DNA of 33,527 nucleotides, from contig JAPLJI010000142.1 in the NCBI GenBank assembly GCA_026388655.1, positions 1-33,527 on the forward strand, written 5' to 3'. Each line of letters opens with the position of its first letter. Positions within the stretch are counted from its first letter, which is position 1. Below the pieces are notes generated by a model. That model was not told where the DNA came from, ran no database searches, and saw only the letters and a list, made by a program, of their open reading frames with translations. The position numbers and the translations under genes were made by a program. The stretch is from Pseudomonadota bacterium (lineage in GTDB: Bacteria; Desulfobacterota; JAPLJL01). Of this stretch, positions 7,100-33,377 are shown in pieces.

Positions 7100-7127
7100 T
7101 CAAAGCTCAAAGGTCAAGGCTCAAAGT
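7100..7127. repeat. Period-7 array (TCAAAGC type)
   Basis: Four heptamers in a row: TCAAAGC, TCAAAGG, TCAAGGC, TCAAAGT. The array begins 9 bp after the crotonase stop codon. Confidence 0.75.
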
Positions 7128-7188
7128 ACTATGTTCGACTGATAGCTAACGGCTAATGTACTGCGTTGTAAATTCCTTTACCCTGGTT

Positions 7189-7253
7189 GTCATTCCGGGC
7201 TTGACCCGGAATCCAGGTTTTTTATCATGGATTCCCGCTTTCGCGGGAATGAC
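7189..7253. repeat. GTCATTCC palindromic repeat, copy 2
   Basis: Ends GTCATTCCGGG and CGCGGGAATGAC. Similarity to the copy at 26298-26362 extends about 30 bp further left (TGCGTNNTAAATT...CTTGGTT type sequence), making a shared unit of about 95 bp. Confidence 0.8.
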
Positions 7254-7298
7254 ACAAAGGATGAAGAACAGCAAAGATTGAAGGAAGATTAAATCAAG

Positions 7299-8018
7299 AT
7301 GCGATCATTCTTTCTGGTGCGTCATGGTGAAGCCCGGACGGTGGATGAGGAAGGGGTCATCCGCAATTACACCGGGGCCGAACTGACGGAAAGGGGAATC
7401 CGGCAGGCCCAGGCCCTCCGCGACTACTTCCAGGAGACTAAATTCTCCGCGGTTTACGCCAGCGACTTAAAGCGTTCCCTCCAAACGGCCGAAATCGTGG
7501 TGCAGGGGCGGGGGATGCAGGTCAGGACCGACCCTCATCTCCGGGAATTTTCAGTGGGCCAGCTTGAAGGCATCACGGTCTCCGAGGCCATTGACCGTTA
7601 TTTTCCCTCCGCCCGAAATATTCAATCCCCCGCCGATTTCCGGGCCCAGTTTTCCCTCCAGGGAAGATTCCCCGGGGGAGAGAGCCTTTCCGAATTTGAG
7701 GGGAGGGTGCTAAAGGCCTGGAAACGGCTCGTGGCCGCCGAGGGGGAGGACGGCCCGGTCCTGGTCGCGGCCCACGGCGGGGTAAACCGGGTGATCTTGG
7801 CCGATCTTTTGGGTTTGCCGATGGAGATGGAAGGCCTGGCCCGGATCGACCAGGATCCCGCCGCCCTCAACCTGATTGTTTACGTGCCGAGGGAGGGGAT
7901 GCCGGATCACGGGATCGTGCGGATCATCAACTATACCCCTTACAGCCCCACCAAGAGCGATCTGGGCCTGGATCGCTTTATCGTCTCGATGCTGAAAGGC
8001 CGGATCCCCACGGCTTGA
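7299..8018 (+). CDS. Histidine phosphatase family protein
   Basis: This 239-residue protein has the family signature RHGE at residues 8-11 with the phosphorylated His at 9. It also has the SDLKRSLQTA arginine motif (about 56-65), an acid near REFSVGQLEG (82-91) and the second His in VAAHGGVNRV (159). The general architecture is that of phosphoglycerate mutase-like phosphatases (2,3-bisphosphoglycerate-dependent mutase, CobC, or broad-specificity phosphatase). The long C-terminus (PDHGIVRIINYTPYSPTKS) does not match CobC. The specific substrate cannot be told. GGAAG precedes the ATG. Confidence 0.85.
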   Translation: MRSFFLVRHGEARTVDEEGVIRNYTGAELTERGIRQAQALRDYFQETKFSAVYASDLKRSLQTAEIVVQGRGMQVRTDPHLREFSVGQLEGITVSEAIDRYFPSARNIQSPADFRAQFSLQGRFPGGESLSEFEGRVLKAWKRLVAAEGEDGPVLVAAHGGVNRVILADLLGLPMEMEGLARIDQDPAALNLIVYVPREGMPDHGIVRIINYTPYSPTKSDLGLDRFIVSMLKGRIPTA

Positions 8019-8108
8019 ACCTGCCCGCCGCTGAAAAATCGATCATAACGGGTTTAAAATTTTTAACTTGTAATTCCCCGTGGTCTTGCCACGGGGTTAC
8101 CTTATCCC

Positions 8109-8176
8109 GTCATTCCGCACTTGATGCGGAATCCAGTTTTTTTGTTTTTCTGGATCCCCGCTTTCGCGGGGATGAC
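8109..8176. repeat. GTCATTCC palindromic repeat, copy 3
   Basis: Same layout as copy 1 (GTCATTCCGCACTTGATGCG...CGCGGGGATGAC), including the conserved left flank from about 8077. It is directly followed by a GTAGGGGC element. Confidence 0.8.
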
Positions 8177-8186
8177 AATCAGTTAT

Positions 8187-8244
8187 GTAGGGGCGGCCCT
8201 CCGCGGCCGCCCGAAGAAGGGAGCCCGCGGAGGGGCTCCCCTAC
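8187..8244. repeat. GTAGGGGC element, copy 3
   Basis: GTAGGGGCGGCC at the left and GGGGCTCCCCTAC at the right. Inside are GCGGCCGCC and GAGCCCGCGGAGGGGCTC hairpins. It is nearly the same as 6036-6093. Confidence 0.75.
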
Positions 8245-8296
8245 GAAAAAAAATATTGTAAGGTTTTTACTGAGACACCAAGGGTAGATATCCAAG

Positions 8297-9502
8297 ATGA
8301 TCCCTCGATATAAACCTTATCTCGGCTGGGAGGAATTCCGCGCCGCGCTGGCCTGGGGCCGCCCGGCGGTGGAAGAATTCGAAAAGAAATTCGCCCGGGC
8401 CCTGCAGGCCAAATATGCCCTGGCTTTCCCCTACGGGAGAAGCGGCCTGTATGCCCTTTTAAAATCCCGGGGGATCGAGGGCGCGGAAGTCATCATTCCC
8501 GCTTATACCTGCGTGGTCGTCCCTCACGCGGTGGTGGCCTCGGGAAATATTCCCCGCTTTGTGGATATTTCCCTGTCCGACTATAACCTGGACCTGGATT
8601 TATTGGAGAACGCCATCACCGACCAGACCAGGGTAATCATCCCCACCAATCTTTTCGGTTACCCAGGCAATCCGCGGCGCTTATTCGAGATTATCAACCG
8701 GACCGGAAGGGAAATCCTGGTTTTCCAGGACTGCGCCCATTCCTTGGGCGCCACTTGCCAGGGAAAACCGGTCGGTAATGAAGGGGATGCGGCCATCTTC
8801 GGCCTGGGCATCAACAAGATGATCACCTCGGTTCTCGGGGGGATGGTCACCACTAACGATGAAAATATCTGCCAATCCCTTCGGGAATACCGGGACTCCA
8901 GCTTTGCTCCGGGAAATTTTCGGAAAAGATTGACCAGATCAATATATTTATCTCTGGCCTTCATGACCTTGAACGATTCGCTTTACCGGCTGGTCGATTT
9001 CCTGGAGGAAAAAACCCCTTTTCTTGATTTTTTCACCTCTGATTATGATGAAAATAAAATTACCCTGCCGAAAGATTATCTCGAGCGAATGGTGGACCTG
9101 GAAGCGCGGGTCGGGATCGAGCAGTTAAAAAAATACCCGGAAATTCTCAGGCGGAAAGAGGAAATGGCCGGGTATTATGACCGGCATCTGCAGCCGATCA
9201 AGGATAAAGTTGTTCTTCCGCCCTTGATGGTTGGAGCCACGTATTCCCATTACGTGGTCCGGGTCCCGGACCGGATCAAAACCATCGAGGCCCTGCGCCG
9301 GAAGGGGATCCAGCTCGGCTGGCTGATCGAATATTCCGTCCCGGAAATGCCGGTCTATCGGCAATATAAAACCGGTTCCTACCCGAACTCTTATCTCTGC
9401 TCTCAAACCACGGTAAATTTACCTTTATATCCGGGTCTGAAAACGCGGGATCTGGATTACATTAATAAGAAATTTATCGAATTTTTTGTTTGCAATTTAT
9501 GA
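8297..9502 (+). CDS. DegT/DnrJ/EryC1/StrS-family aminotransferase
   Basis: This 401-residue PLP-dependent enzyme belongs to the sugar aminotransferase family. Visible motifs are AFPYGRSGLYALL (43-55, cofactor phosphate site), VIIPAYTCVV (65-74), FQDCAHSLGA (143-152, with D145 contacting the PLP nitrogen) and GLGINKMITSVLGG (169-182), where K174 is the expected Schiff-base lysine. Family members make amino sugars for lipopolysaccharide, glycans or secondary metabolites. No sugar nucleotide genes lie beside it here, so the substrate is open. Start ATG at 8297 lies about 50 bp after a repeat and has only a weak ribosome-binding site. Codon use near 8940-9060 is somewhat more AT-rich than the neighbours. 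Confidence 0.85.
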   Translation: MIPRYKPYLGWEEFRAALAWGRPAVEEFEKKFARALQAKYALAFPYGRSGLYALLKSRGIEGAEVIIPAYTCVVVPHAVVASGNIPRFVDISLSDYNLDLDLLENAITDQTRVIIPTNLFGYPGNPRRLFEIINRTGREILVFQDCAHSLGATCQGKPVGNEGDAAIFGLGINKMITSVLGGMVTTNDENICQSLREYRDSSFAPGNFRKRLTRSIYLSLAFMTLNDSLYRLVDFLEEKTPFLDFFTSDYDENKITLPKDYLERMVDLEARVGIEQLKKYPEILRRKEEMAGYYDRHLQPIKDKVVLPPLMVGATYSHYVVRVPDRIKTIEALRRKGIQLGWLIEYSVPEMPVYRQYKTGSYPNSYLCSQTTVNLPLYPGLKTRDLDYINKKFIEFFVCNL

Positions 9503-9562
9503 CACAGTGTGTTAAAAATTTAATATAGTTTTTCTCTTTTTCCTTCAGAAAGGAAGCCAGTC

Positions 9563-9985
9563 ATGGCATTATTTCCCAGTCCAGAGTGGGTGGAGGAGAT
9601 GCGGAAGGTGGCCGAGTCGGACCCTGAATATAAGAAAGCCGGGGCTGATTGGGAAGGGGACATGATTATGGTAATTGAAGCGGAGCCCGGAAAGCTTGAC
9701 CAGCCTTTTATGTATTATTCCAAGCCTTACAAAGGGGAGATGCTCGAATACTACCAGCTCAAAAACGAGAACGAGCGGACAGCCGAATACACCATCCGCG
9801 CCCCTTATTCAGTGATAAAAGGGATTATCAAGGGGGAAATCGATCCCTTGCAGGCGATGATGAAGGGCAAGATCAAGGTCAAGGGCAACATGCAGAAGCT
9901 CCTCAAATACGCCAAGTTCCAGCAGTTGGGGATGAAGGCCCTGGCCAAGGTAAAGACCGAATTTGTGGACGAAGTCAAAAAATAA
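9563..9985 (+). CDS. SCP2 sterol-binding-like domain protein
   Basis: This 140-residue protein consists of one SCP2-like fold. The conserved 'YTIRAPYSVIKGIIKGEIDP' and 'MMKGKIKVKGNMQKLLKY' stretches (about 78-113) match the lipid-binding loop and the GKIKVKGD-type strand seen in SCP2 proteins. It probably binds acyl-CoA or other hydrophobic ligands in the cytoplasm, in keeping with the crotonase and acyl-CoA dehydrogenase nearby, but no operon links them. A strong GAAAGGAAG site precedes the ATG. The promoter of the downstream RNA lies within its last codons. Confidence 0.8.
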   Translation: MALFPSPEWVEEMRKVAESDPEYKKAGADWEGDMIMVIEAEPGKLDQPFMYYSKPYKGEMLEYYQLKNENERTAEYTIRAPYSVIKGIIKGEIDPLQAMMKGKIKVKGNMQKLLKYAKFQQLGMKALAKVKTEFVDEVKK

Positions 9986-9994
9986 GGTTATAAT
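9966..9994 (+). promoter_or_regulatory. Promoter of the SRP-like RNA
   Basis: TGGACG at 9966-9971 (4/6) is followed after exactly 17 bp by a perfect TATAAT at 9989-9994. Transcription would start near 10001, about 15 bases before the long RNA rod begins. The -35 box lies inside the end of the SCP2-like gene. Confidence 0.6.
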
Positions 9995-10000
9995 AAAAAC

Positions 10001-10165
10001 CAGTAGTCTGAGGCAGCTTTAAAAGGTGACCATTTATATTACTGAAGCCGGCCTTTTCGGAAGGGCGGGGGAATCAGATCGGCCCGGAAAGGCAGCAAGG
10101 TTGTTTTCCCTCAGCCCGCGGGATTATGCCGGGGGAAATGAGGGTGTTTATCCTTTTAAGCATCT
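10001..10165 (+). ncRNA. ffs: Rod-like structured RNA, candidate SRP (4.5S) RNA
   Basis: The sequence folds as one long hairpin. GCUUUAAAAGG (10016-10026) pairs with CCUUUUAAGC (10152-10161) with a one-base bulge. Inner pairs are CAUUU/AAAUG (10031/10136), CCGGC/GCCGG (10048/10128), GGGC/GCCC (10063/10114), GGGAA/UUCCC (10069/10106) and GCC/GGC (10082/10091). The centre of this symmetric rod is GGAA at 10086-10089, the SRP tetraloop sequence, followed on the 3' side by GGCAGCAAGG, close to the SRP GGAAGCAGCC segment. It differs from the usual CCGGAAGG: here the loop is CGGAAA. A promoter lies upstream. SRP RNA is the best match I know, but the loop and 5' symmetric loop are not canonical, so another structured RNA is possible. 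Confidence 0.5.
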
Positions 10166-10240
10166 TCCAGAAAAACCGATTACGAGAGCGATTTTAAGAT
10201 AGTTTCAACTAACTTTTAAGTATTTTTTTATGGAGAATGA

Positions 10241-10270: not shown

Positions 10271-10301
10271 ACCATTAACTTTAGTAAACGGAGGGCTCCC
10301 A

Positions 10302-11480: not shown

Positions 11481-11482
11481 AA

Positions 11483-11566
11483 TTGACGATTTACGATTGA
11501 CGAATGGGAAAAGCATAGCGCATAGAGCATAGCGCACAGCGAGGTAGCCGCAGCCTTTAGGCTGCG
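11483..11566. repeat. Period-7 arrays plus GTAGCCGCAGCC hairpin, left copy
   Basis: TTGACGA, TTTACGA, TTGACGA (11483-11503), then CATAGCG, CATAGAG, CATAGCG, CACAGCG (11514-11541), then the GTAGCCGCAGCCTTTAGGCT hairpin (11544-11566). The same three modules recur in the same order at 12936-13027, on the other side of the acyl-CoA dehydrogenase gene. Confidence 0.8.
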
Positions 11567-11682
11567 TAGATCAAAAGAATTGATGATTTACGAATGAAAA
11601 TCAAAAAACAATAACGATTGCAACTCATTAATAATGAATTAAAAACAGAGAATACGGATGGTTTTATGTTTTTTTAATATGC

Positions 11683-11717
11683 AATCGTAAATCGTAAATC
11701 GTCAATCGTAAATTGAA
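11683..11717. repeat. Period-7 array (AATCGTA type)
   Basis: AATCGTA, AATCGTA, AATCGTC, AATCGTA, AATTGAA. This is the reverse complement of the array at 11483-11503, so the two form inverted ends of a 235-bp intergenic block. Confidence 0.8.
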
Positions 11718-11769
11718 AGAATAGTTTAAATAAACAAAAAAAATTAAATATTTTAAGAAGGGGGGAACC

Positions 11770-12924: not shown

Positions 12925-13027
12925 CGAAAATACCAATTGACGATTGACGATTTACGAGTGACGAATGGCAAAAGCATAGCGCAAAGAGCATAGCGCATAG
13001 AGAGGTAGCCGCAGGCTTTAGCCTGCG
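12921..13027. repeat. Period-7 arrays plus hairpin, right copy
   Basis: TTGACGA at 12921 contains the acyl-CoA dehydrogenase stop codon. Then come ATTGACG, ATTGACG, ATTTACG, AGTGACG (12936-12963), CATAGCG-type heptamers (12975-13002), and a GTAGCCGCAGGCTTTAGCCT hairpin (13005-13027). The module order is the same as at 11483-11566. Confidence 0.8.
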
Positions 13028-13089
13028 AAAAAGGCGCAACCTGAAGGTTGCGGTTACCCATCTTGTTGATATGCTGATTGAGAATCGGT

Positions 13090-16370: not shown

Positions 16371-17426
16371 TCAGCCAGCTTTTTTGATCTTCCCCGCCCG
16401 GGCCCGGGCCAGTTCGCAGGATGGCCGGTAGGGCTTGGCGATCTCGTTCGACAAGGTCAGGGACATCCCCGGGCAGAGAGAACAGAATCCCAGGTAACGG
16501 CAGGAAAGACACTCCGGAACCCGCGCCATCGTCATTTTCCTGAGCTCCTGGAGCACCGGGGATTTCCTCCAGATTTCCGCGAATTTCTTTTTTCTCAAGT
16601 CGCCGGCTTGACGGCGGATCTGAACGCAGGGATAAACCTTGCCGTCGGGAGAAATCGCCAGGGAGTTTCTTCCGGCCGCGCAGATCGGATCTGCGGGTCG
16701 GCGGTCGGGATTGGGGGTAAGGTCCGGGCAGGATTCGGAATCGTTTTCCCGGGACAATCCGGCCCGGATCTCCCGGGTTTTGAGCTGAAGTTTTAAAGGG
16801 GCGGGGTTGCCATCGTCGCGGGGGGAAAGGACGTAGGAAAATTGAATGAGAACGTCCAGATCCCGGGCCAAGTCCCGCAATGGCTTGATCTCTTTTTGAT
16901 TAAGCGTCATCACCGGGGTTTTTAAATTAACCTTGATGCCTTCATTTTTGAGAAGCCGGATAGCTTTCCAGGTGAGCTCGAATGAACCTTCCATTCCGGT
17001 GATCAGGTCGTGAATATTGGGGTTAGCGGCATAAACGCTGATTTCGACTTCGAAGGGGTTCAGGCGGGAAAGTTTTTTAACGGTTTCCCTGGTGATCAGT
17101 GTCCCGTTGGTAAAAATGCGAAAGGCGAAGCGTTGTTCCCGGGCGATTTTGAGCAGTTCCAGGAAGTTTGGATAGAGCAGGGTTTCTCCACCGGTAAAGG
17201 TTAAAAAAAGCGTTCCGGATTCCGCCAGCTGGGTAAAAATATTTGCCCATTGCTTCAGGGTGAGTGAGGATTTTGGGGAAAAGGATTTTGGGTGGAGTTG
17301 GGCGGGCAGTATGTAGCAATGCCGGCAGGATAGATTGCATCGGTAGGTCAGCTCAATTAATGCCGAGATGGGGGTCAGCCGCAGCGCGGCCTTGTTCATT
17401 ATCTTTTCGTAACCGGGCATGATCAA
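16371..17426 (-). CDS. Radical SAM/SPASM protein, PqqE-like
   Basis: The frame gives up to 351 residues. The radical SAM cluster motif is YRCNLSCRHCY with C30, C34 and C37, and FTGGETLLYP is the SAM-binding GGE motif. A SPASM domain follows: PICAAGRNSLAISPDG, VYPCVQI, then CLSCRYLGFCSLCPG. This matches enzymes that modify ribosomal peptides with a PqqD-like partner, and such a partner is encoded just upstream at 17579-17878. Possible starts are TTG 17426, ATG 17420 (MPGYEK) and ATG 17399 or so (MNKAAL); none has a strong ribosome-binding site. A heptamer array covers the start region (17425-17453). The peptide substrate is not identified. Confidence 0.85.
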   Translation of the reverse strand: MIMPGYEKIMNKAALRLTPISALIELTYRCNLSCRHCYILPAQLHPKSFSPKSSLTLKQWANIFTQLAESGTLFLTFTGGETLLYPNFLELLKIAREQRFAFRIFTNGTLITRETVKKLSRLNPFEVEISVYAANPNIHDLITGMEGSFELTWKAIRLLKNEGIKVNLKTPVMTLNQKEIKPLRDLARDLDVLIQFSYVLSPRDDGNPAPLKLQLKTREIRAGLSRENDSESCPDLTPNPDRRPADPICAAGRNSLAISPDGKVYPCVQIRRQAGDLRKKKFAEIWRKSPVLQELRKMTMARVPECLSCRYLGFCSLCPGMSLTLSNEIAKPYRPSCELARARAGKIKKAG

Positions 17427-17453
17427 AGTGAAAAGTGAAAAGTTAGAAAAAAG
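17425..17453. repeat. Period-7 array (AAAGTGA type)
   Basis: AAAGTGA, AAAGTGA, AAAGTTA, GAAAAAA. It is the same family as the array inside the hydrolase signal peptide at 14096 and lies at the 5' end of the radical SAM gene. Confidence 0.7.
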
Positions 17454-17470: not shown

Positions 17471-17553
17471 GTCATTCCGCACTTGATGCGGAATCCAGGG
17501 TTTCCCGTTTTTGCGGGGGACAGCGTCTGGATTCCTGCTTTCGCAGGAATGAC
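17471..17553. repeat. GTCATTCC palindromic repeat, copy 4
   Basis: Ends GTCATTCCGCACTTGATGCG and CGCAGGAATGAC, with a longer middle than the other copies (an extra TTTTTGCGGGGGACAGCG piece). It separates the PqqD-like gene from the radical SAM gene. Confidence 0.8.
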
Positions 17554-17578
17554 AACGATGACTGAAGCAGATGCCAAA

Positions 17579-17878: not shown

Positions 17879-17940
17879 CAGGGTAAGTTTAAAAGATTAA
17901 AGTTCGGATCGAAAGGGACAATAATTAAAAATTTCCAATG

Positions 17941-17961
17941 TCTAATTACTAATTTCTAAAC
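17941..17961. repeat. Period-7 array (TCTAATT type)
   Basis: TCTAATT, ACTAATT, TCTAAAC. It lies just after the stop codon of the minus-strand nucleotidyltransferase gene, the same gene-end position seen for the plus-strand arrays. Confidence 0.6.
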
Positions 17962-19119: not shown

Positions 19120-19147
19120 GTTGGGTGTTGGTGGTTGGGTGTTGGGT
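19120..19147. repeat. Period-7 array (GTTGGGT type)
   Basis: GTTGGGT, GTTGGTG, GTTGGGT, GTTGGGT. A related array in the opposite sense (CTCCCAA units) follows at 19232-19273. Confidence 0.8.
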
Positions 19148-20490: not shown

Positions 20491-20551
20491 AGTTCAAAGT
20501 TCAAAGCTCAAAGGTGAAAGGAAACATGAAAGTCAAAGTTCAAAGGTCAAA
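20491..20551. repeat. Period-7 arrays (AGTTCAA type)
   Basis: AGTTCAA, AGTTCAA, AGCTCAA, AGGTGAA (20491-20518), then AGTCAAA, GTTCAAA, GGTCAAA (20531-20551). The first unit starts three bases after the radical SAM stop codon. Confidence 0.8.
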
Positions 20552-20570
20552 ACTCACCGGAAAAACGATC

Positions 20571-20600: not shown

Positions 20601-20606
20601 ATTTTC

Positions 20607-20634
20607 CTATGACCTATCACCTATGACCTGATAA
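20607..20634. repeat. Period-7 array (CTATGAC type)
   Basis: CTATGAC, CTATCAC, CTATGAC, CTGATAA, immediately before the alcohol dehydrogenase start codon at 20656. Confidence 0.75.
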
Positions 20635-20655: not shown

Positions 20656-21774
20656 ATGGAATTTAATTTTCAAAACCCAACGAGGATAATCTTCGGCTGG
20701 GGAGCCCTCGGAGGCCTCCGCCAGGTGGTTGACGGCTTCGGCCCGGGCCGGATCCTGCTGGTAACCGGTAAATCCGCGATGCGGAAATCCGGGATAACCG
20801 GGAAAATCATCCAGGAACTGGGACCCGAAAGGGTGGCGGTTTTCGATCAGGTCGAGCCCAATCCCTCCGCCCTGACCGTGGACCGGGGCGTCGAGATCTG
20901 CCGGAGGGAGAAAAGCGGTTTGATCATCGGTCTGGGAGGCGGGAGCCCGCTTGATTCCGCCAAGGCCATGGCGGCTTTGGCCAATAACCCGGGCCAGGCC
21001 TGGGAATATCTGGAAGGAAAAGAGCTGAAGCATCCGGGTCTGCCCTTGATCGCCGTTCCCACCACTTCCGGTTCTGGAAGCGAGGTTACCCCCTTTTCGA
21101 TCCTGACCATTCCGGAAAAACATCTGAAATTTTCCCTGCGGCATCCGATTCTATATCCCCGGGTCGCGATCATTGATCCGCTTTTAACGGTCAGCCTTCC
21201 TCCCCGGCAGACCGCGGCCACCGGTCTGGATGTGTTGGCACACGCCCTGGAATCCCTCTGGTCGAAGAATCATCAACCCCTGGCGGCCCTCTTCGCCGAG
21301 CGCGCCATCGAGCTCATCTTTCTGCATCTGGTCCGGGCTTATCGGAGCGGGGACGACCCGGCCGCCCGGATCGGGATGTCGGAGGCCAGCATGCTGGGCG
21401 GGTTGGCCATCAGTCAGACCGGCACCACCGCCATTCATCCCGCTTCTTATCCCCTTACTTTTGACTTCGATTTTGAACACGGCCTGGCCTGCGCCATTTT
21501 CATCCCGTCTTTTTTCCAGATCAACCGGCCGGCAATCGGGGATCGCTTGGCCCGGCTCCTGCGGATCCTGGACCTGAAAAACCTGGAAAGCTTGGCAGGG
21601 AAGATTCAAACCTTGATGCGGGAGCTCGAGGCCCCGATCCGTCTCCGGGAAATCGGGGTGAAAGAGAAGGATCTCTCCCAACTGGCGGAGCGGGGGATCG
21701 GGAAGAGCACGGCTTTGAACCCGGTTGAGTGTCGGCGGGAAGATCTGGAAAAAATCCTCAAAGAAATATTTTAA
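20656..21774 (+). CDS. Iron-containing (group III) alcohol dehydrogenase
   Basis: This 372-residue protein has the usual family length. The nucleotide site is IIGLGGGSPLDSAKAMA (90-106), and VPTTSGSGSEVTPFSI (134-149) is the family signature. The metal ligands are in place: D192 and H196 (GLDVLAHALE), H261 (AIHPASYPLT) and H275 (FEHGLACAI). It would interconvert an alcohol and an aldehyde using NAD(P)H. The specific substrate is unknown. There is no clear ribosome-binding site, because a heptamer array and GATAACTGGTT fill the space before the ATG. Confidence 0.9.
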   Translation: MEFNFQNPTRIIFGWGALGGLRQVVDGFGPGRILLVTGKSAMRKSGITGKIIQELGPERVAVFDQVEPNPSALTVDRGVEICRREKSGLIIGLGGGSPLDSAKAMAALANNPGQAWEYLEGKELKHPGLPLIAVPTTSGSGSEVTPFSILTIPEKHLKFSLRHPILYPRVAIIDPLLTVSLPPRQTAATGLDVLAHALESLWSKNHQPLAALFAERAIELIFLHLVRAYRSGDDPAARIGMSEASMLGGLAISQTGTTAIHPASYPLTFDFDFEHGLACAIFIPSFFQINRPAIGDRLARLLRILDLKNLESLAGKIQTLMRELEAPIRLREIGVKEKDLSQLAERGIGKSTALNPVECRREDLEKILKEIF

Positions 21775-22153
21775 AATTGACGATTTACGATTGACGATTT
21801 ATGAGTGAAAACCAAAGATTATGCTAAAATTCAAAGCTCCCATATCAAATCAAGCTTAAACCCGAAAAATGCGATTGAATCCATTCCTTTGTCATCCGCA
21901 GGCGGATTTTTTTGTAGTCTGCCGATTCACTTGTCCCTTCGCTGAGGGGATCGGCGGTTTTCAAAAGCGCCCGATAAATCGGGCAACTACAAAACATCAG
22001 GTAATAACAACTGTATTTTCCGGCTTAAAGTTTGTTTGCTAAAAGTCTTGGATTTAAATTTTGAATTTGGTGCAATCGTCAATCGTCAATCGTAAATCGT
22101 CAATCGGCAGGTGGCGGGATTGAGCCCGCGTTTGTTGTTATAATTCAAAAGTT
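21775..22153. repeat. Repeat-filled gap before cobA-hemD
   Basis: About 380 bp without a gene. ATTGACG, ATTTACG, ATTGACG, ATTTATG (21776-21803) starts just after the dehydrogenase stop. The inverted partner AATCGTC, AATCGTC, AATCGTA, AATCGTC, AATCGGC is at 22074-22108. Between them are a terminator (21894-21913) and a GTAGT..GCCGATT element with right end CGGGCAACTAC (21914-21990). Confidence 0.8.
21894..21913 (+). terminator. Short hairpin with T-tract
   Basis: ATCCG CAGG CGGAT is followed by a run of seven T. It would end transcripts from the alcohol dehydrogenase gene about 120 bp after its stop. The stem is only 5 bp, so its strength is doubtful. Confidence 0.45.
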
Positions 22154-23668
22154 ATGACGGGGGGAAAGGTATATTTGATCGGCGCGGGCCCCGGAGATCC
22201 CGGACTCCTGACCAGAAAAGCGGAGAGAATCCTGGGCCTGGCGGACGTGGTCTTTTACGACGCCCTGGTGGATCGGTCCATTTTAAGCCTGGTCAAACCC
22301 GGAGCGGAGCTCATCCCGGTCGGGAAACGAGGGGGTAAGCCCTCACCCAAGCAAAAGGAAATCAATAAACTCCTGATCCAGAAGGCCCGGGCCGGCAAGG
22401 TCGTGGCCCGGCTCAAGGGGGGAGACCCGTTCGTTCTGGGGCGGGGGGCGGAAGAAGCCCTGGCCCTGGTCCGGAGGGGGGTGAAGATCGAGCTGGTCCC
22501 GGGGGTTACCTCGGCGATTGCCGCCCCCACCTATGCCGGGATTCCCTTGACCCATCGGGATTTCGCTTCGAGTTTTTCCGTGATCACCGGTCAGGAAGAT
22601 CCCGCCAAAACCGAGTCCGGGATCGATTGGAAGGCGTTGGCTTCGGGAAAAGGGACCCTGGTATTCCTGATGGGGATGGCCAACCTGGATAAAATCACCG
22701 GGAACCTGACCCGGGCCGGTCTTTCTCCCCGGACTCCGGTCGGGATTGTCGAGAATGGAACCTACCCGTTTCAAAGAACGGTGATCGGGGATTTGCAGGA
22801 TATCTCCCGACGGGCCCGGAAAACCGGGATAAAACCGCCGGCGGTGATCATCGTGGGTGAAGTGGTCCGCCTGCGGGAAAAAATGAATTGGTTTGAGAAA
22901 AAACCCCTGTTTGGAAAAAAGATTGTTATCACCCGGGCCCGGGAACAGGCTTCTTACCTTTCGGAACTGCTTCAGGAGTCGGGGGCCTGGACGCTGGAAT
23001 TCCCCACCATTGAGATACTGGGTCCCCGGCAATGCACCAGTCTGGACCGGGCGATCGGGAAGATTTCGAGTTTTGACTGGCTGGTTTTAACCAGTCCCAA
23101 CGGGGTGAGAGGCCTGATCGGAAGAATGCTGGATCTGGACCGGGATTTGCGTGATTTGAAAGGGGTCAAGATCGCCGTGATCGGCCCGGCTACCCGGGAC
23201 GAACTGGGGTGGTGGGGGATAAAGGCCGAGGTTATGCCCGCGAGGTATTATTCGAAAGAACTGCCCCGGGCCATGGGCGGGAAAAATATCCGGGGACAAC
23301 GGATCCTGCTGGCCCGCTCCGAACAGGCGGATCCGGATTTAAATCGAGCCCTCCGGGCCGCGGGAGCGGTGGTAACCGAGGCGATTTGTTATCGCACGGC
23401 CAGGGTCAAAAAGGTGGACCCGGAAGTAAAGAAGATGGTGGCCTGCGGGGATTTTGACGGGATTACGTTCACCAGTTCCTCCACGGTGAATAACTTCATG
23501 GGAATCATGGGGAAGCCGCGGGCCCAACGGCTTCTGAAAGGCAAACTCGTGGCCGCGATTGGAGAGGTAACCGCCCGGGCGTTGCGGGAGAACCAGGTCC
23601 AGGCCGGGATTGTCGCCCGGAGACCAACGATTCCCGATCTGGCGGAGGCGATAATCAAACACTATTAA
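22154..23668 (+). CDS. cobA-hemD: Uroporphyrinogen-III methyltransferase / synthase fusion
   Basis: This 504-residue fusion has two enzymes. Residues 1-245 are the SAM-dependent uroporphyrinogen-III C-methyltransferase: GAGPGDPGLLT (10-20), LKGGDPFVLGRG (87-98), LVPGVTSAIAAPTYAGIPLTHR (114-135). Residues about 253-504 are uroporphyrinogen-III synthase: KIVITRAREQ, LVLTSPNGV, and ITFTSSSTVNNF. Together they convert hydroxymethylbilane to uroporphyrinogen III and on to precorrin-2, feeding siroheme. The ATG is ten bases after a perfect TATAAT (22139-22144) and lacks a ribosome-binding site, so the mRNA may be nearly leaderless. A heptamer array starts five bases after the stop. Confidence 0.95.
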   Translation: MTGGKVYLIGAGPGDPGLLTRKAERILGLADVVFYDALVDRSILSLVKPGAELIPVGKRGGKPSPKQKEINKLLIQKARAGKVVARLKGGDPFVLGRGAEEALALVRRGVKIELVPGVTSAIAAPTYAGIPLTHRDFASSFSVITGQEDPAKTESGIDWKALASGKGTLVFLMGMANLDKITGNLTRAGLSPRTPVGIVENGTYPFQRTVIGDLQDISRRARKTGIKPPAVIIVGEVVRLREKMNWFEKKPLFGKKIVITRAREQASYLSELLQESGAWTLEFPTIEILGPRQCTSLDRAIGKISSFDWLVLTSPNGVRGLIGRMLDLDRDLRDLKGVKIAVIGPATRDELGWWGIKAEVMPARYYSKELPRAMGGKNIRGQRILLARSEQADPDLNRALRAAGAVVTEAICYRTARVKKVDPEVKKMVACGDFDGITFTSSSTVNNFMGIMGKPRAQRLLKGKLVAAIGEVTARALRENQVQAGIVARRPTIPDLAEAIIKHY

Positions 23669-23673
23669 AATTA

Positions 23674-23733
23674 AGTTCAAATGCCAAAGTTCAAATGCCA
23701 AATAAAGCTCAAATGACAAAGCTCAAATGCCAA
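23674..23733. repeat. Period-7 array with 14-bp super-repeat
   Basis: AGTTCAA-ATGCCAA repeated twice (23674-23701), four spacer bases, then AGCTCAA-ATGACAA and AGCTCAA-ATGCCAA (23706-23733). Two different heptamers alternate, giving a 14-bp repeat. Confidence 0.8.
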
Positions 23734-23758
23734 ATAAAACCAAGAACACAAAATTATT

Positions 23759-23826
23759 GTCATTCCGCACTTGATGCGGAATCCAGTTGTTTTGCTTTTC
23801 TGGATTCCTGCTTTCGCAGGAATGAC
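23759..23826. repeat. GTCATTCC palindromic repeat, copy 5
   Basis: Ends GTCATTCCGCACTTGATGCG and CGCAGGAATGAC, lying between cobA-hemD and ahbC. Confidence 0.8.
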
Positions 23827-23918
23827 GATAGACAACATAAAAATCTTTTTGATTTAGATAACTCTCGGTTTTGCCGCGGGGAGAATCATCTTTGGATTTT
23901 GAACTTGGAGACTTTTAA

Positions 23919-25082
23919 ATGATTAACCTGAGCCGGCTTTTATTTGACTATGAAACCGAAGGGGACCGCCTCCGCTACCGGAGCGATCCGAAAAAAGCCA
24001 GACCCATCGTGGTCTGGAATATCACCCGCCGCTGTAATTTAAAGTGCCGGCACTGCTATTCCGACTCTAAAAACCGGTTTTACCCCGGGGAGGTGAAAAC
24101 CGAGGAAGCCCGGCGGATTCTGGAGGATCTCGCGGATTATAAAATCCCGGTTGTGCTCTTCTCGGGGGGGGAGCCGTTGCTGCGACCGGATATTCTGGAG
24201 CTGGTTGCCCGGGCCCGGGACTTGGGGATCAGGCCGGTATTGTCCACCAACGGGACCCTGATTAATCAAAAAACCGCCCGGGAGCTGAAAAAAGCGGGCC
24301 TGGCTTATGCCGGGGTCAGCCTGGATGGGATCGGGGAAAGGAATGACTTTTTCCGCGGGGTTTCCGGGGCATATATAAGGACCTTGAAGGGAATCCGAAA
24401 CTCGCAGGACGCCGGCATAAAAACCGGGCTGAGATTTACCATCACCCGCCTGAATATGGGAGAGATCCCCGGGATTTATAATCTTTTAAAGAAAGAAGAA
24501 ATCGTGCGGGCCTGTTTTTATCACCTGGTTTGCACCGGCCGGGGGAGTAATCTCCTCGATGTGAATTTAACCCCCTGGGAGACCCGGCAGATCATGGACA
24601 CCATCATTTCCCTTTCCGGGGAGCTTTTCTGGGAGGGGAGAAAAATGGAAATTCTCACCGTCGACAATCATGCCGACGGCCCTTATCTTTTTCTCCATGT
24701 TAAAAAACGCGATCCGGTCAGGGCCAGAAAAATATTTTCGCTTCTGAAAATGAACCGGGGCAACCGTTCCGGGATCGGGATTGCCGGGATGGACTGGAAC
24801 GGCCAAATCAGCCCGGACCAGTTCTGGCAGAGCCGGGTCCTGGGAGATATTCACCGGAAGGGTTTTGCCGAAATCTGGGGAAACCCCAAAAATCCGACCC
24901 TCAAGCGGTTAAGGGAATACCCGCGGCGAATCAAGGGAAGATGCGGAAAGTGCCGGTTCCTGGAAATCTGCAACGGGAATTTCCGGGCCCGGGCGGAGAC
25001 GATTTTGAATGATCCCTGGGCCTCCGACCCGGCGTGTTACTTGAGCGATGAGGAAATAGGTTTAGTGAAAAGTAAAAAGTGA
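23919..25082 (+). CDS. ahbC: 12,18-didecarboxysiroheme deacetylase (radical SAM)
   Basis: This 387-residue radical SAM/SPASM protein matches AhbC and its relative NirJ. The cluster motif is TRRCNLKCRHCY with C39, C43 and C46, and FSGGEPLLRPD follows. Diagnostic later stretches are TVDNHADGPYL (248-257), MDWNGQISPDQFW (291-303) and GRCGKCRFLEICNGNFRARAE (340-360). The final C342, C345, C351 and C373 would hold an auxiliary cluster. AhbC removes two acetate side chains from 12,18-didecarboxysiroheme to give Fe-coproporphyrin III. Context with ahbD and a siroheme decarboxylase favours AhbC over NirJ. The last codons (VKSKK and the TGA) are encoded by a period-7 array. GGAG lies before the ATG. 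Confidence 0.9.
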   Translation: MINLSRLLFDYETEGDRLRYRSDPKKARPIVVWNITRRCNLKCRHCYSDSKNRFYPGEVKTEEARRILEDLADYKIPVVLFSGGEPLLRPDILELVARARDLGIRPVLSTNGTLINQKTARELKKAGLAYAGVSLDGIGERNDFFRGVSGAYIRTLKGIRNSQDAGIKTGLRFTITRLNMGEIPGIYNLLKKEEIVRACFYHLVCTGRGSNLLDVNLTPWETRQIMDTIISLSGELFWEGRKMEILTVDNHADGPYLFLHVKKRDPVRARKIFSLLKMNRGNRSGIGIAGMDWNGQISPDQFWQSRVLGDIHRKGFAEIWGNPKNPTLKRLREYPRRIKGRCGKCRFLEICNGNFRARAETILNDPWASDPACYLSDEEIGLVKSKK

Positions 25083-25112
25083 AGATGCCGGGGTTCAAAG
25101 TTCAAGGTTCAG
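25064..25112. repeat. Period-7 arrays across the ahbC stop codon
   Basis: AGTGAAA, AGTAAAA, AGTGAAG (25064-25084) contains the ahbC stop codon (25080-25082). GGTTCAA, AGTTCAA, GGTTCAG (25092-25112) follows. Confidence 0.75.
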
Positions 25113-25135
25113 AGGTTTGGAAATCCATTTTGTTA

Positions 25136-25172
25136 ACCTTTGAACGTTGAACCCTGAACCTGACAACCTGAA
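25136..25172. repeat. Period-7 array (TTGAACC type), inverted partner
   Basis: TTGAACG, TTGAACC, CTGAACC and then TGACAAC, CTGAATA. It is close to the reverse complement of 25092-25112, so the two arms could form a hairpin of over 20 bp between ahbC and hemB. Confidence 0.75.
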
Positions 25173-25192
25173 TAATCACAAAGGAGAACAAA

Positions 25193-26164
25193 ATGATTTT
25201 TCCAGAATATCGGGCGCGCCGTTTGAGGAAAACCGAAGGGTTAAGATCATTGCTGCAGGAAACCCGGCTCTCGGTCAAAGATTTCGTCTATCCTCTGTTT
25301 GTTTTCCCGGGAAAGGGGAAACAGGAGATTTCTTCCATGCCGGGGATTTACCGCCTGGGCCTGGAGGATCTGGCCGGGGAGATCCAGGAAATCGACCAGC
25401 GGGGAATCCCGGCGGTCATTCTTTTCGGACTGCCCCGGGTTAAAGACGCGGTTGGTTCGGAAGCATTCAAGGAAAAAGGAATAATCCAGCAGGCGATCCA
25501 GGCCATCAAGGCCCAGAAAAGCAGGCTCACGGTCATCTGCGACCTTTGCCTCTGCGAGTATACCGACCATGGTCATTGCGGAAAAATGGAGAACGGCGAG
25601 CTGGATAACGATGCCACCCTCGAGATCCTGGGCGAAGTGGCGGTGGCCCAGGCCCGGGCGGGAGCGGACATGGTGGCTCCTTCGGGAATGATTGACGGCC
25701 AGGTGCAATCCATCCGGGAGGCGCTGGATGAACACGGGTTTGAGGGGATCCCGATCATGGCCTATTCGGCCAAGTACGCTTCGGCTTTCTATGGGCCTTT
25801 CCGCGACGCCGCCCAGTCCGCTCCCCAGTTCGGTGACCGGAAATCCTACCAGATGGACCCGCCCAATGTCCGGGAGGCTTTGCGGGAGATCCAGCTCGAT
25901 ATCGACGAAGGAGCGGATATCGTGATGATAAAACCGGCGCTGGCTTACCTGGATGTGATCGCCCGGGCCCGGATGGAATTCAATCACCCGATCGCGGCCT
26001 ACAATGTGAGCGGTGAATACTCGATGATCGAGGCGGCCGCCCGGGCGGGTTTCATCGAGAGAGAGAGGGCTATCATGGAGGTATTAACGGCCATCAAGCG
26101 GGCCGGGGCCGATATTATCATTTCCTATTACGCCAAGGAGATGGCTCAGGTTCTGGAAAAGTGA
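25193..26164 (+). CDS. hemB: Porphobilinogen synthase (ALA dehydratase)
   Basis: This 323-residue protein is full length. Zinc-site cysteines are present in DLCLCEYTDHGHCG (C119, C121, C129), so this is the zinc-dependent type. The two active-site lysines are K194 (AYSAKYAS) and K247 (MIKPAL), the latter forming the Schiff base. It condenses two 5-aminolevulinate molecules to porphobilinogen, the first shared step of tetrapyrrole synthesis. AAAGGAGAAC precedes the ATG. It lies between ahbC and ahbD, an arrangement known from Ahb loci. Confidence 0.97.
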   Translation: MIFPEYRARRLRKTEGLRSLLQETRLSVKDFVYPLFVFPGKGKQEISSMPGIYRLGLEDLAGEIQEIDQRGIPAVILFGLPRVKDAVGSEAFKEKGIIQQAIQAIKAQKSRLTVICDLCLCEYTDHGHCGKMENGELDNDATLEILGEVAVAQARAGADMVAPSGMIDGQVQSIREALDEHGFEGIPIMAYSAKYASAFYGPFRDAAQSAPQFGDRKSYQMDPPNVREALREIQLDIDEGADIVMIKPALAYLDVIARARMEFNHPIAAYNVSGEYSMIEAAARAGFIERERAIMEVLTAIKRAGADIIISYYAKEMAQVLEK

Positions 26165-26297
26165 GGAAACAATCCAAAGCAACCGTTTTTTTAAAGCGGA
26201 TCAAATTCGGATTGCCATCGATCGATAATCCAACAATAAGCACTTAAATCAGAAATCCATACTAGTGTATTGCGTCATAAATTTCTTTAGCTTGGTT

Positions 26298-26362
26298 GTC
26301 ATTCCGGGCTTGACCCGGAATCCAGGGTTTTTATCATGGATTCCCGCTTTCGCGGGAATGAC
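26298..26362. repeat. GTCATTCC palindromic repeat, copy 6
   Basis: Ends GTCATTCCGGG and CGCGGGAATGAC. Nearly identical to 7189-7253 and sharing its left flank. Confidence 0.8.
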
Positions 26363-26415
26363 GGCCAGAAATTCATATAAAGAAGCATTAGGCGCATATT
26401 ATTAATTAGAAATTT

Positions 26416-27441
26416 ATGAATGCTGCTCCTTCTTTAAGAATCGTCGCCTGGGAGCTTACCCGCAGGTGCGAGTTGAATTGCCGGCATTGCCGGGCCGGGG
26501 CCAGCCCCGAGCGGGACCCCCTGGAACTGAAGACCGAAGAAGCTTTGCGGGTAATAAAATCCCTGGCCGGATTCTCCCGGCCACTTTTGATCCTCTCCGG
26601 GGGTGACCCGATCCTGCGGGAGGATCTTTTTGACATTATCCGGGAAGCCAGGAATGCAGGGTTCAAGGTGGTCGTGGCACCCACCGGCGCGAATTTGAAT
26701 CCGGAGATTGTTCAGAAGATCAAGCGGGCCGGGGTGGAACGGTTGAGCATCAGTCTGGATGGGGCTTCGGGGAAGAGCCACGATTCCTTCCGGGGAAAGC
26801 CGGGGGTATTCAATCTGATCATGAAGGGCGTGGATTTTCTCCGGGAGGCCGGGCTTCCTTTCCAGGTGAATACCACGGTCACCAGGGTGAATATCGCCGA
26901 GGTTCCCGAGATCTACGAACTAACCCGAAAAATCGGGGCCGAGGCTTTTCATATTTTTCTTCTGGTGCCGGTGGGAAGAGGTGAAAATCTCCGGGACTGG
27001 GAGATCACCCCCAAGGAATATGAAAAAACATTACGCTGGATCGCGGAAAAAGAAAAGGAAGGGGCCCTGGAATTGAAGGCGACTTGCGCGCCCCATTATT
27101 ACCGGATCCTGAAGCAAATGGGGATTCCACCCAAAAACCCCGGCGGGCAGGGTTGCCTGGGGGGGAAGAGCTACGCTTTTATCTCTTCCCGGGGCGAGGT
27201 GCAAATCTGCGGATATCTGCCTTTGCCGGCGGGGGATCTGCGAAAGAATGGTTTTGATTTTCACTCCATCTGGACCGGTTCGGAATTATTCCGGGCCGTG
27301 CGGGAGGTTGATTCCTACCAGGGTAAATGCGGGATCTGCGAGTTCAATAAGATCTGCGGTGGATGCCGGGCCCGCGCCTTCGCTTTTGGCGGAAATTTTC
27401 TAGGAGAAGAACCGTTCTGTCTTTATCAACCGAAACAATAA
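26416..27441 (+). CDS. ahbD: Fe-coproporphyrin III decarboxylating heme synthase (radical SAM)
   Basis: This 341-residue radical SAM/SPASM protein has TRRCELNCRHCR with C18, C22 and C25, and LSGGDPILRED as the SAM-binding motif. Later stretches typical of AhbD are LKATCAPHYYRIL, QGCLGGKSYAFISSRGEVQICGYL, and CGICEFNKICGGCRARAFA, whose cysteines serve a second Fe4S4 cluster. AhbD oxidatively decarboxylates two propionates of Fe-coproporphyrin III to the vinyl groups of heme b without oxygen. The location beside hemB, ahbC and a siroheme decarboxylase subunit fits. The upstream ribosome-binding site is weak. Confidence 0.9.
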   Translation: MNAAPSLRIVAWELTRRCELNCRHCRAGASPERDPLELKTEEALRVIKSLAGFSRPLLILSGGDPILREDLFDIIREARNAGFKVVVAPTGANLNPEIVQKIKRAGVERLSISLDGASGKSHDSFRGKPGVFNLIMKGVDFLREAGLPFQVNTTVTRVNIAEVPEIYELTRKIGAEAFHIFLLVPVGRGENLRDWEITPKEYEKTLRWIAEKEKEGALELKATCAPHYYRILKQMGIPPKNPGGQGCLGGKSYAFISSRGEVQICGYLPLPAGDLRKNGFDFHSIWTGSELFRAVREVDSYQGKCGICEFNKICGGCRARAFAFGGNFLGEEPFCLYQPKQ

Positions 27442-27714
27442 AAGGTCAAGGGTGAAAGGTGAAAGGTGGCCCAGACTTCGCCAAGGCTACGTCGGGCTCG
27501 CAGAGCTCGGTAGCCGCAGGCTTTCCTTCGACAAGCTCAGGACGGGTAGCTTGCGTTTTTAGTGGTTAGGTTGTTTGGTGGCTCGGTGGTTAGGTAGCTA
27601 GAAAATACAGAAGGCAATTAGGGTATCAGGAAATCAGGATGTGGAGATCCGAATATCAGGTTATCAGGTAATCAACCAAACCAGATGAACTATTAGCCAT
27701 ACGCTATTATCACC
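27442..27714. repeat. Repeat-filled gap after ahbD
   Basis: AGGTCAA, GGGTGAA, AGGTGAA, AGGTGGC (27443-27470) starts two bases after the stop. A GTAGCCGCAGGCTTT element is interrupted by the widespread CCTTCGACAAGCTCAGGA repeat (about 27511-27555). GGTTAGG, TTGTTTG, GTGGCTC, GGTGGTT, AGGTAGC follow at 27564-27598, and ATCAGG units with a looser 7-8-bp spacing at 27625-27672. Confidence 0.7.
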
Positions 27715-28158: not shown

Positions 28159-28171
28159 CGGGAGGGTTGAT

Positions 28172-31400: not shown

Positions 31401-31730
31401 TCAGGTGGTAGCCGCAGCCTTTAGGTTGCGTAGTTCAAAAGAATTGACGATTGACGAGTGACGAGTGACGAGTGACGAGTGAAAACCTAAGAAGAATTGA
31501 CGAATAACAAATGAAAGCAAAAGCAAATTATTAATTGCAGATTATGTTTGTTGAATATTTAAATCGTAAATCGTAAATCGTAAATGATCATGGACTAGAC
31601 AGACCAAATAGACCAGATAGATCAAAGAAACCAGAATGTAGGGCAAGGCTTCAGCCTTGCGTCCGAAAAGAGGGGTTCGAGGGTTGGAGATGAACCACGA
31701 TGACCGAACAAATCAAATAAACCATATGTG
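31401..31730. repeat. Repeat-filled gap before the kelch gene
   Basis: A GTAGCCGCAGCCTTTAGGTT hairpin is at 31408-31430. TTGACGA, TTGACGA, GTGACGA (three times) is at 31444-31478, and the inverted AATCGTA array (three units) at 31562-31582. AGACCAAAT/AGACCAGAT units of 9 bp lie near 31600-31630. A GGCAAGGCTTCAGCCTTGCG hairpin is near 31641-31662. No gene is seen. The layout repeats that of 11483-11717. Confidence 0.75.
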
Positions 31731-33254
31731 ATGAGATCTCAGCGAAAAAATCATGCAGGTTTTCGATTAGGTGTTTTTTTCCTTTTTGCGCTAATTTTCG
31801 TTGGTTGCTCGGAAACTGACCGATCCGGGGAACTTGGAATCCAGCTGAATTGGCTGCCGGATGCCGACTCGCGCGTCGCTTCATTCCGGGGAGGGATGAT
31901 TCCCGAGGCGAACCTGGCGGGGGCCGATTTCATCCGGGTCACCATCAAAGGGCAATTTACGGATGTTATCAAGGAGTTTTTACTTTCCAAATATCCGGAC
32001 GGGGCTTTGATCTCAGGGATCCCGGCCGGGTCCGGGATTCTGGTCCAGGTGGAAGCTTTGCGCCAGGTTACGGAAAAGGCGATTTACAGCGGATCCCGGT
32101 CGGGGGTAGAGATCCAGGCCGGGCGGGAAACCGGGGTTTCGATCCTCATGACCCGGGAGGGAGAATTCAGCTTGCTTTCTCCCCTGAATTCACCCCGGGC
32201 TTTTGCCGCCTCGGCCACTCTGCCGGACGGGCAAATTCTCCTCGCGGGAGGGGCCAGGAATTTCAGCGACGAGGGAGACCGATGGAAGATTTCTCCCGAT
32301 GGGTCACTTGAGGTTTACCAGCCGGAGCTGGGAAGCTTCAGGGTCCTGGAGGCGGAACTCGATGTTCCCCGGGTTTTTCATACCCTGACCCTTCTTTCCG
32401 ACGGCACCCTGATCGTGGCCGGGGGAATGGTGGCGGGATGGCTGGATCCGGATTTGTCCATCCAGGCCGGATCGTTGACCAACTCCATCGAATTTTTCCG
32501 CCCGGAATCGGGCTTGGTTTCCGATTTCGGCCGGTTGAATTTTCCCCGTTTTTTCCACACCGCGGATATCCTGGCCGATGGCCGGATCCTGGTGGCGGGA
32601 GGATGGGGTGAGGACGGGAAAAAAATCCAGACCGCGGAAGTCCTCAATCCCGAGAGCGGGGAAATCGAGATAGTGCAAATGCTCACGGGCCGGGCCGGGC
32701 ACCGTTCGTTGTCCCTGCCCCAGGGTTCGATCCTGCTCTGGGGCGGAAACGCCGGAGAGCCACTCGCGGAGATTTACGTTCCCGGCCAGGGCTTCCAGCC
32801 GTTTGCGGGCGGAACCAGCTGCCCCGTGGTTGAGTATCACACCCTGGACCTGGTCGATAACTGGATTCTGATTTCCGGGGGGGTAATTCGCGAGCCTTAC
32901 CTGGTCCTGGCAGACGGCTGGCTGGTGGATCTGGCCCGGGAAAAGCCGGATCGGAAATTGCCGCTTAATTCGGTCCGGGCTTTTCATTCTTCCTTTAAGT
33001 TACCGTCCGGAGAAATCTGCCTGGCCGGAGGGATTCAGAATATTTCCGATCTCGCCGGAGGCAGGAAGGTGGAATGCTTTAATCCCGCGACCCAGGATTT
33101 CCAGGCGGTGGCAGAACTCAACCAGGGGCGTTTCGGTCACACGGCGGTTGGGCTTGCCGATGGCAATGCCCTGATCGTGGGGGGGGTGGTGGGAAACCGG
33201 GATTCCCTGGAAGCAACCTTCAGCGCGGAAATTTATAATCCGCCGGGATGGTAA
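31731..33254 (+). CDS. Kelch-type beta-propeller lipoprotein
   Basis: About 507 residues from the ATG at 31731. The N-terminus is a lipoprotein signal (RRxK-like basic start, hydrophobic stretch, LIFVGC with the lipid Cys at 26). Residues about 150-505 hold at least five to six kelch-like blades, each with 'LPDGQILLAGG'-type sequence: LLSDGTLIVAGG, ILADGRILVAGG, LPQGSILLWGG, LPSGEICLAGG, LADGNALIVGG. The fold is that of galactose-oxidase central domains. It probably sits on the periplasmic face of a membrane or on the surface. The substrate or partner is unknown. No strong ribosome-binding site is visible. Confidence 0.8.
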   Translation: MRSQRKNHAGFRLGVFFLFALIFVGCSETDRSGELGIQLNWLPDADSRVASFRGGMIPEANLAGADFIRVTIKGQFTDVIKEFLLSKYPDGALISGIPAGSGILVQVEALRQVTEKAIYSGSRSGVEIQAGRETGVSILMTREGEFSLLSPLNSPRAFAASATLPDGQILLAGGARNFSDEGDRWKISPDGSLEVYQPELGSFRVLEAELDVPRVFHTLTLLSDGTLIVAGGMVAGWLDPDLSIQAGSLTNSIEFFRPESGLVSDFGRLNFPRFFHTADILADGRILVAGGWGEDGKKIQTAEVLNPESGEIEIVQMLTGRAGHRSLSLPQGSILLWGGNAGEPLAEIYVPGQGFQPFAGGTSCPVVEYHTLDLVDNWILISGGVIREPYLVLADGWLVDLAREKPDRKLPLNSVRAFHSSFKLPSGEICLAGGIQNISDLAGGRKVECFNPATQDFQAVAELNQGRFGHTAVGLADGNALIVGGVVGNRDSLEATFSAEIYNPPGW

Positions 33255-33273
33255 CACAAAATGGCAAAAAACA

Positions 33274-33377
33274 GTTTCGAGTTTCTAGTCTCTAGTTTCG
33301 AGTTAAAACCGACACCGACAATGATTCCTTAAAATTTACTGGTTTAAAATCAAAACCCGAAACCCGAAACCCGAAAA
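33274..33377. repeat. Period-7 arrays before acpS
   Basis: GTTTCGA, GTTTCTA, GTCTCTA, GTTTCGA (33274-33301) and AACCCGA three times (33354-33374). ACTAGAAACCCGAGAC near 33390 is nearly the reverse complement of part of the first array. Confidence 0.8.

Follow-up and report, generated by a model that had tools for sequence, protein, structure and literature searches.

Short tandem arrays of 7-nucleotide units lie in many gaps between the genes of a Desulfobacterota genome (GenBank assembly GCA_026388655.1), and the sequence of the unit varies from gap to gap. This raises the question of how a single period could come with so many units. An earlier note, made from the letters of one contig, had seen in the arrays a common generating process and not the spread of an element. 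Here we asked how regular the period is, how the arrays are arranged relative to genes and to each other, and what stands in the same gaps of a related genome.

Materials and Methods

The source is a 3.56-Mb draft genome of 194 contigs, and the window is one of them (JAPLJI010000142.1, 33,527 nucleotides). Gene calling relied on a codon-usage model. The gaps analysed came from the window, from another 40 stretches of this genome and from some 1.2 Mb of DNA of the congener G002. Stretches L009-L028 were picked for their TTGACGA content, and stretches L042-L061 were picked regardless of it. In total, 72 gaps were matched between the source genome and G002, whose orthologs had a mean protein identity of 83.6% and an identity of 70% at fourfold sites.

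Results

The 7.1 kb of intergenic DNA in the window contained 133 lag-7 runs (at least 12 of 14 matches); lag 6 had none, lag 8 had 2, and dinucleotide shuffles gave 0.1. The lag comparison with shuffled controls proposed in the earlier note thus came out as it expected. Coding DNA was near background, and there were almost no such runs in genes. In the unselected stretches of the genome, about 350 lag-7 runs stood above a background made of N-runs. When all arrays in the intergenic DNA of the source-genome stretches were counted by one criterion, there were 325 with period 7, 53 with period 8 and 39 with period 9, and none of the other periods within 4-12 exceeded 21 arrays. TRF agreed with this excess. 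The gaps thus hold intergenic heptamer tandem repeats of the STRR/LSSR type, with an excess of 7 nt over other periods and over shuffles. The earlier statement that the period is almost always 7 is fair, provided that it leaves room for octamer and nonamer minorities; these are real, and therefore period 7 is dominant and not exclusive. The number of gaps with arrays had been put too high, at 20 or more, and was 15 of 25 in the window by a loose criterion. The idea that three units match two turns of DNA (21 bp) found no separate support: the signal at lag 21 was lower than at lags 7 and 14, which is no more than a multiple of 7 should give. Beside heptamers, arrays of octamers (GGTGGTTA, TATCAGGT) and of nonamers (GGACACTAT) were seen at 27561-27592 and 27654-27674 of the window and in stretch L134. 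The heptamer arrays of the window are listed in Table 1.

Table 1. Positions of heptamer arrays and inverted arms in the window
Feature	Position	Strand	Remarks
CAAAG-NT heptamer array directly after stop codon	7096..7124	+	gap 7092-7298; ortholog has GTTCAAG units in G002, TTGACGA units in G001
Left arm, TTGACGA family, 1 nt past stop codon	11482..11506	+	gap 11481-11769; TRF
GCATAGC/GAGCATA array adjoining left arm at 11482	11510..11541	+	
Right arm, TTGACGA-family reverse complement	11683..11718	-	partner of 11482-11506; G002 ortholog has GTTTCGA/TCGAAAC-like pair
TTGACGA array past stop codon	12931..12967	+	gap 12925-13089
GCATAGC/GCAAAGA array	12978..13002	+	
AAAGTGA array, 5' edge of minus-strand gene	17421..17448	+	
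CTAATTT-family array	17934..17959	+	
Left arm GTTGGGT	19127..19147	+	
Right arm CTCCCAA	19235..19274	-	inverted partner of 19127-19147
GTTCAAA/CAAAG array past stop codon	20489..20521	+	
Second CAAAG array	20529..20556	+	
CCTATGA array (inward TCATAGG)	20603..20629	-	partial inverted partner of CAAAGGT units; family kept in G002 ortholog
Left arm TTGACGA, 1 nt past stop codon	21776..21804	+	
Right arm TCGTCAA	22073..22109	-	pairs with 21776-21804, REP-like core in between; z -6.1 when folded as single-stranded DNA
GTTCAAA/ATGCCAA array, interrupted by short indels	23673..23752	+	TRF
Left arm GTTCAAA, compact hairpin	25093..25114	+	
Right arm TTTGAAC, compact hairpin	25138..25160	-	RNA fold z -5.0; G002 ortholog has GGGCATA/CCCTATG pair
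AAAGGTG array, overlaps stop codon	27441..27468	+	
Left arm TTGACGA/GTGACGA	31440..31485	+	end is GAGTGAAAA
Right arm TCGTAAA	31560..31590	-	
Left arm GTTTCGA/GTTTCTA	33273..33304	+	
Right arm AACCCGA	33346..33384	-	TRF

The 329 arrays of the source-genome set were made of 119 canonical units, many of which fell into about a dozen main families, and several distinct units thus occur in one genome, as in repeats of the STRR/LSSR type. TTGACGA was by far the largest family (74 of the 329 arrays), and its counts are inflated because stretches L009-L028 had been selected for it. Further families were CAAAG-NT (GTTCAAA, AAAGGTC), CATAG-NN, CTAATTT, GTTTCGA and GTTGGGT. A G-rich, quadruplex-type unit as in Xanthomonas was not found among the commonest units: TTGACGA and GTTCAAA have no run of three G, and such runs were confined to minor families (TTGGGTG, GGGCATA). 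The unit may change in register within an array, for instance from AAAGGTC to TTGACGA in stretch L051. Mismatches per 7 nt between units numbered 1.22 at separation 1 and 2.36 at separation 4, where it should be noted that the detection rule itself favours like neighbouring units; this likeness of neighbours fits local duplication or slippage followed by mutation. By eye, some units seemed to have five constant and two variable positions, as in the Nostoc motif NNTGAGT. We rejected this pattern, as the two most variable columns were adjacent at the chance rate (56, 54 and 56 for distances 1, 2 and 3).

The units had been described as differing entirely between places. In fact, many of them have their reverse complement or a close variant within the same gap: TTGACGA, for example, occurs with TCGTCAA or with AATCGTA/CAATCGT. 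Two of the pairs given as unshared units, GTTGGGT with CTCCCAA and GTTTCGA with AACCCGA, share a gap and are reverse-complement partners there, and TTGACGA recurs at four sites of the window (11482, 12936, 21776 and 31445). Genome-wide, its double unit TTGACGATTGACGA (exact or with one mismatch) was found at 355 places, against 0 for the reversed control. The two congeners had 129 and 175 places, and each of 115 further genomes of the phylum had 0-6. Furthermore, 37 of 76 TTGACGA edge arrays had the inner end GARTGAAAA or a close variant (reversed control, 0), often followed by CCAAAGAA, which is sequence outside the repeat. Because the arms share this inner end, they are copies and not independent births. 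To this extent, and with the fixed polarity and inverted pairing described below, the arrays partly fit the case of copies of a few fixed elements, which the earlier note had set against its own reading. TTTGAAC arrays had a wider distribution: of 116 genomes of the phylum, 40 contained them, with up to 175 matches, and the reversed controls were low in all but one. In samples of up to 20 kb, other heptamers were present in G022 (70% GC), G011, G048 and G111, and there were none in most of the genomes sampled. Heptamer arrays were also present on two Armatimonadota contigs.

In many gaps, an array of unit X stands just past the stop codon, and its reverse complement forms an array immediately ahead of the next gene. 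There were 68 inverted same-family pairs within gaps, against 15.7 in permutations (maximum 26 in 500 permutations), and 25 against 4 expected when TTGACGA was left out. With polarity normalised, the outermost arrays belonged to the same family in 36 of 132 co-directional gaps (12.4 expected). The values were 3 against 1.4 in convergent gaps and 3 against 1.0 in divergent gaps, which are too few to judge. Most arrays had no detected inverted partner. A small set hinted that inverted pairs favour co-directional gaps; this was not significant in the larger set (p = 0.15) and was dropped. Beyond family, the arms showed no unit-by-unit match, since arms of the same gap were no more alike than same-family arms elsewhere.

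The direction of the arrays was nearly constant. When edge arrays with identical units from different gaps were read from the gene end into the gap, 1846 pairs ran in the same direction and 40 in the opposite one; at one mismatch, the numbers were 1751 and 384. Stop-edge compared with start-edge arrays gave 634 pairs in the same direction and 15 in the opposite, and 67 of 69 TTGACGA edge arrays read inward. Inverted pairs pointing inward at ORF ends, as known from Xanthomonas, are therefore present in this genome.

Of the gaps matched with G002, 21 carried arrays in both species, 8 and 6 in one genome only, and 37 in neither (odds ratio 16, p = 9e-7). The association held when same-family pairs were removed (odds ratio 9, p = 6e-4) and in gaps of at least 100 nt (odds ratio 16). 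If some gaps are simply permissive and accept whatever inserts, the association would be no different, and thus shared gaps are not proof of function. A family common to both species was found in 9 of the 21 gaps, against 2.6 by chance, and never on the opposite strand. In two gaps, both species had inverted pairs of different families: the TTGACGA pair after 11480 is replaced by a GTTTCGA-like pair in G002, and the GTTCAAA pair after 25082 by GGGCATA/CCCTATG. In addition, gap 7 of stretch L017 compared with L165 gave an example of a filled and an empty gap, where a whole short hairpin was extra. Faster turnover of gaps with arrays was considered and rejected, because whole-gap identity did not differ from that of array-free gaps (p = 0.32).

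Target-site duplications of the MITE type did not exceed chance in 58 elements, the longest shared flanking word matching the chance distribution. The only duplication-like case seen by eye was in gap 10 of stretch L028, where a TTGACGA-family array lies between direct repeats of about 29 nt (TCTCCCATCACCTTCCCTGAAAT...CTC). Nor did arms and internal core go together as in a MITE. The REP-like cores in the loops are separate dispersed families that occur with many arm families or with none, and because they are not tied to any arm family, arms and cores do not move together. GTAG-footed REP-like palindromes with many different stem sequences lie in the gaps of the arrays at many loci, among them 11544-11567, 12999-13025, 6033-6060 and 21908-21990 of the window. 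RAYT (Y1_Tnp) genes are present, with 7 matches in the source genome, 4 in G001 and 2 in G002, and only a minority of RAYT-like loci were flanked by heptamer arms. RAYT was thus rejected as the obvious mobiliser: the genes are there, yet the arms are not regularly at their loci.

Discussion

The fixed inward polarity is the strongest single fact in this study. Neither slippage nor fold-back copying explains it, unless one founder spread. We propose that most of the arrays are arms of small palindromic elements that were dispersed among intergenic sites and later reshaped by slippage and mutation, and we give this an about even chance of being right. Such an element would have the layout (X)n - loop/core - (rc X)m, with X a degenerate heptamer. 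Its copies would spread as palindromes without target-site duplication, and their polarity would be fixed because a palindromic element keeps its polarity in either insertion orientation. Subsequently, the arms may be reshaped by unit slippage and mutation, and old copies may be replaced in tolerant gaps by copies of another family. As a guess, the hairpin might have a further part in insulating or processing the transcript where one gene gives way to the next. Dispersal of palindromic elements with heptamer arms is the best-supported account, one that we hold evenly poised between right and wrong, and any specific mechanism or function is something that we infer.

Bacterial heptamers are usually explained by polymerase slippage, and the earlier note was close to this account: slippage with a 7-nt bias, following the polymerase-contact idea of Mrazek and colleagues, would give birth to arrays independently in each gap from whatever sequence was there. 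The dominance of period 7 over many units and the likeness of adjacent units (1.22 against 2.36) agree with a common generating process, and that part of the earlier reading stands. In addition, many bacteria have heptamers as their commonest type of long simple repeat, according to the passages in which two reports cite Mrazek 2007 (PMC4679880, PMC4692102). The other part, that no element had spread, is at odds with the TTGACGA copies. Slippage predicts neither the fixed polarity, nor the inverted pairing over many units, nor a shared inner end outside the repeat, nor the replacement of one family by another in the same gap; polarity and pairing thus go beyond slippage alone, which we consider unlikely as the whole explanation. 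It is similarly doubtful that the palindromes were born in place, without transposition, by a nascent strand that snapped back and switched template, so that one arm was copied from the other and then amplified by slippage. Such fold-back copying would account for the paired arms, for the switching of both arms to another family together and for the missing target-site duplication. On the coding strand, the arms had 52 G.U and 59 A.C mismatches (p = 0.57), and this equality is what an origin at the DNA level would lead one to expect. Polarity would then vary randomly from gap to gap, yet it is fixed, and the arms lack a unit-by-unit match beyond family.

The same mismatch counts bear on the view that the arms are kept as an RNA hairpin between genes (for 3'-end protection, processing or termination), with heptamer families interchangeable. 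Gaps retain arrays while the families change, as this view would have it, and stable folds are formed: the compact hairpin at 25088-25165 has a predicted RNA fold of -35.5 kcal/mol (z -5.0), and 21770-22115 has a z of -6.1 as single-stranded DNA. There is also a precedent in Nostoc, where stem P6b of the trnL intron is based on one or the other of two heptamer motifs, which were repeatedly replaced (PMC4476775). However, G.U was not in excess over A.C, as selection on an RNA hairpin would predict, pairs were not significantly more frequent in co-directional than in convergent gaps, and there was no Rfam match. We therefore regard a role as RNA as improbable. A still more remote reading, which we give very little weight, is that each array is a row of sites to which a nucleoid or RNA-binding protein attaches, by analogy with suggestions for the paired repeats of Geobacter metallireducens (IHF/HU) and for the Beggiatoaceae TAACTGA repeats (Csp, S1). 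Evenly spaced tandem units that keep one orientation relative to genes would suit it, and the analogues are published (PMC4679880, PMC2700814). Very different units in one genome and swaps between congeners fit sequence-specific binding poorly. The polarity, pairing and replacement that speak for dispersed palindromes make the question of origin testable by comparison of close strains.

The present arrays are a diverse variant of heptamer repeats that have already been described in Xanthomonas, Nostoc, Beggiatoaceae and Geobacter. In Xanthomonas, intergenic GGGAATC arrays lie no more than 50 bp from ORF ends; those that follow a stop codon are on the coding strand, and those that precede a start codon are on the non-coding strand. 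There are 70-75 inverted pairs per genome, at the same genes in two species, with extensive variation in length and sequence (PMC4692102). The inward polarity and the inverted pairs are common to both systems. However, Xanthomonas GGGAATC, like Nostoc GGGGAYT, is one G-rich, quadruplex-capable unit per genome, whereas the present genome has many units, the majority of which are not G-rich, and whole families are replaced at orthologous gaps (PMC4692102). The same report mentions the STRR heptamers of cyanobacteria (Calothrix), which in that brief account are tandem 7-nt repeats with several units per genome, as here. In Geobacter metallireducens, units of about 7-9 nt are repeated three to five times in tandem, and these arrays mostly form opposite-strand pairs; there are several unit classes in one genome, and they are absent from a congener. 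Three hepta/octanucleotide classes with 16-48 aligned sequences were proposed there as IHF/HU sites (PMC2700814). Paired short tandem arrays with several unit classes per genome are what that account has in common with ours.

In P6b of the Nostoc trnL intron, heptamers form both arms of a hairpin, and Class I (TDNGATT) and Class II (NNTGAGT) alternate; this is a single site within a group I intron, whereas the heptamers here are genome-wide (PMC4476775). TAACTGA arrays of Beggiatoaceae stand beside start codons and mostly point toward them, and they are reversed after a stop in one Bacteroidetes case (PMC4679880). This orientation fits one inward polarity, as here, but there is one unit and essentially no inverted pairing (1 of 170 sets). 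REP/REPIN sequences with RAYT are dispersed intergenic palindromes, as are the elements here, and RAYT-type (Y1) genes are present as well. A REP/REPIN is a single imperfect palindrome with a GTAG foot, whereas the heptamer arms have no GTAG foot and are independent of REP cores (PMC3733652, PMC3116915).

What this study adds is the coexistence of many families in a single genome, a quantified rule of polarity and the replacement of families in orthologous gaps. A simple rule (any heptamer, mirrored, with the same polarity) allows the reports on Xanthomonas, Nostoc, Beggiatoaceae and Geobacter to be compared. Tentatively, and with clearly less confidence than in dispersal itself, heptamer-armed palindromes could be a distinct class of non-autonomous intergenic DNA elements in several bacterial phyla, which would include the heptamers of these four groups. 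They would use any heptamer with a fixed inward polarity and might be swapped as whole cassettes, without duplication, at conserved slots at gene boundaries.

Other Features of the Gaps

Paired palindromes of the forms GTCATTCCG...CGGAATCCAG and GGATTCC...GGAATGAC are dispersed in genomes of the genus and lie at 3727-3800, 7190-7255, 17471-17555, 23752-23826 and 26292-26360 of the window. The sequence at 10040-10125 resembles domain IV of SRP RNA (CAGATCGGCCCGGAAAGGCAGCAAGG), with no Rfam match even at E 0.1. Toxin-antitoxin-like pairs (AbrB/PIN and RelE types) were seen by eye, inserted in gaps beside heptamer arrays or in the orthologs of such gaps, in L064 (3443-4348) and in L121 of G001. 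Finally, 22154-27441 of the window holds a row of heme genes of the siroheme route (CobA/HemD fusion, AhbC, HemB and AhbD).
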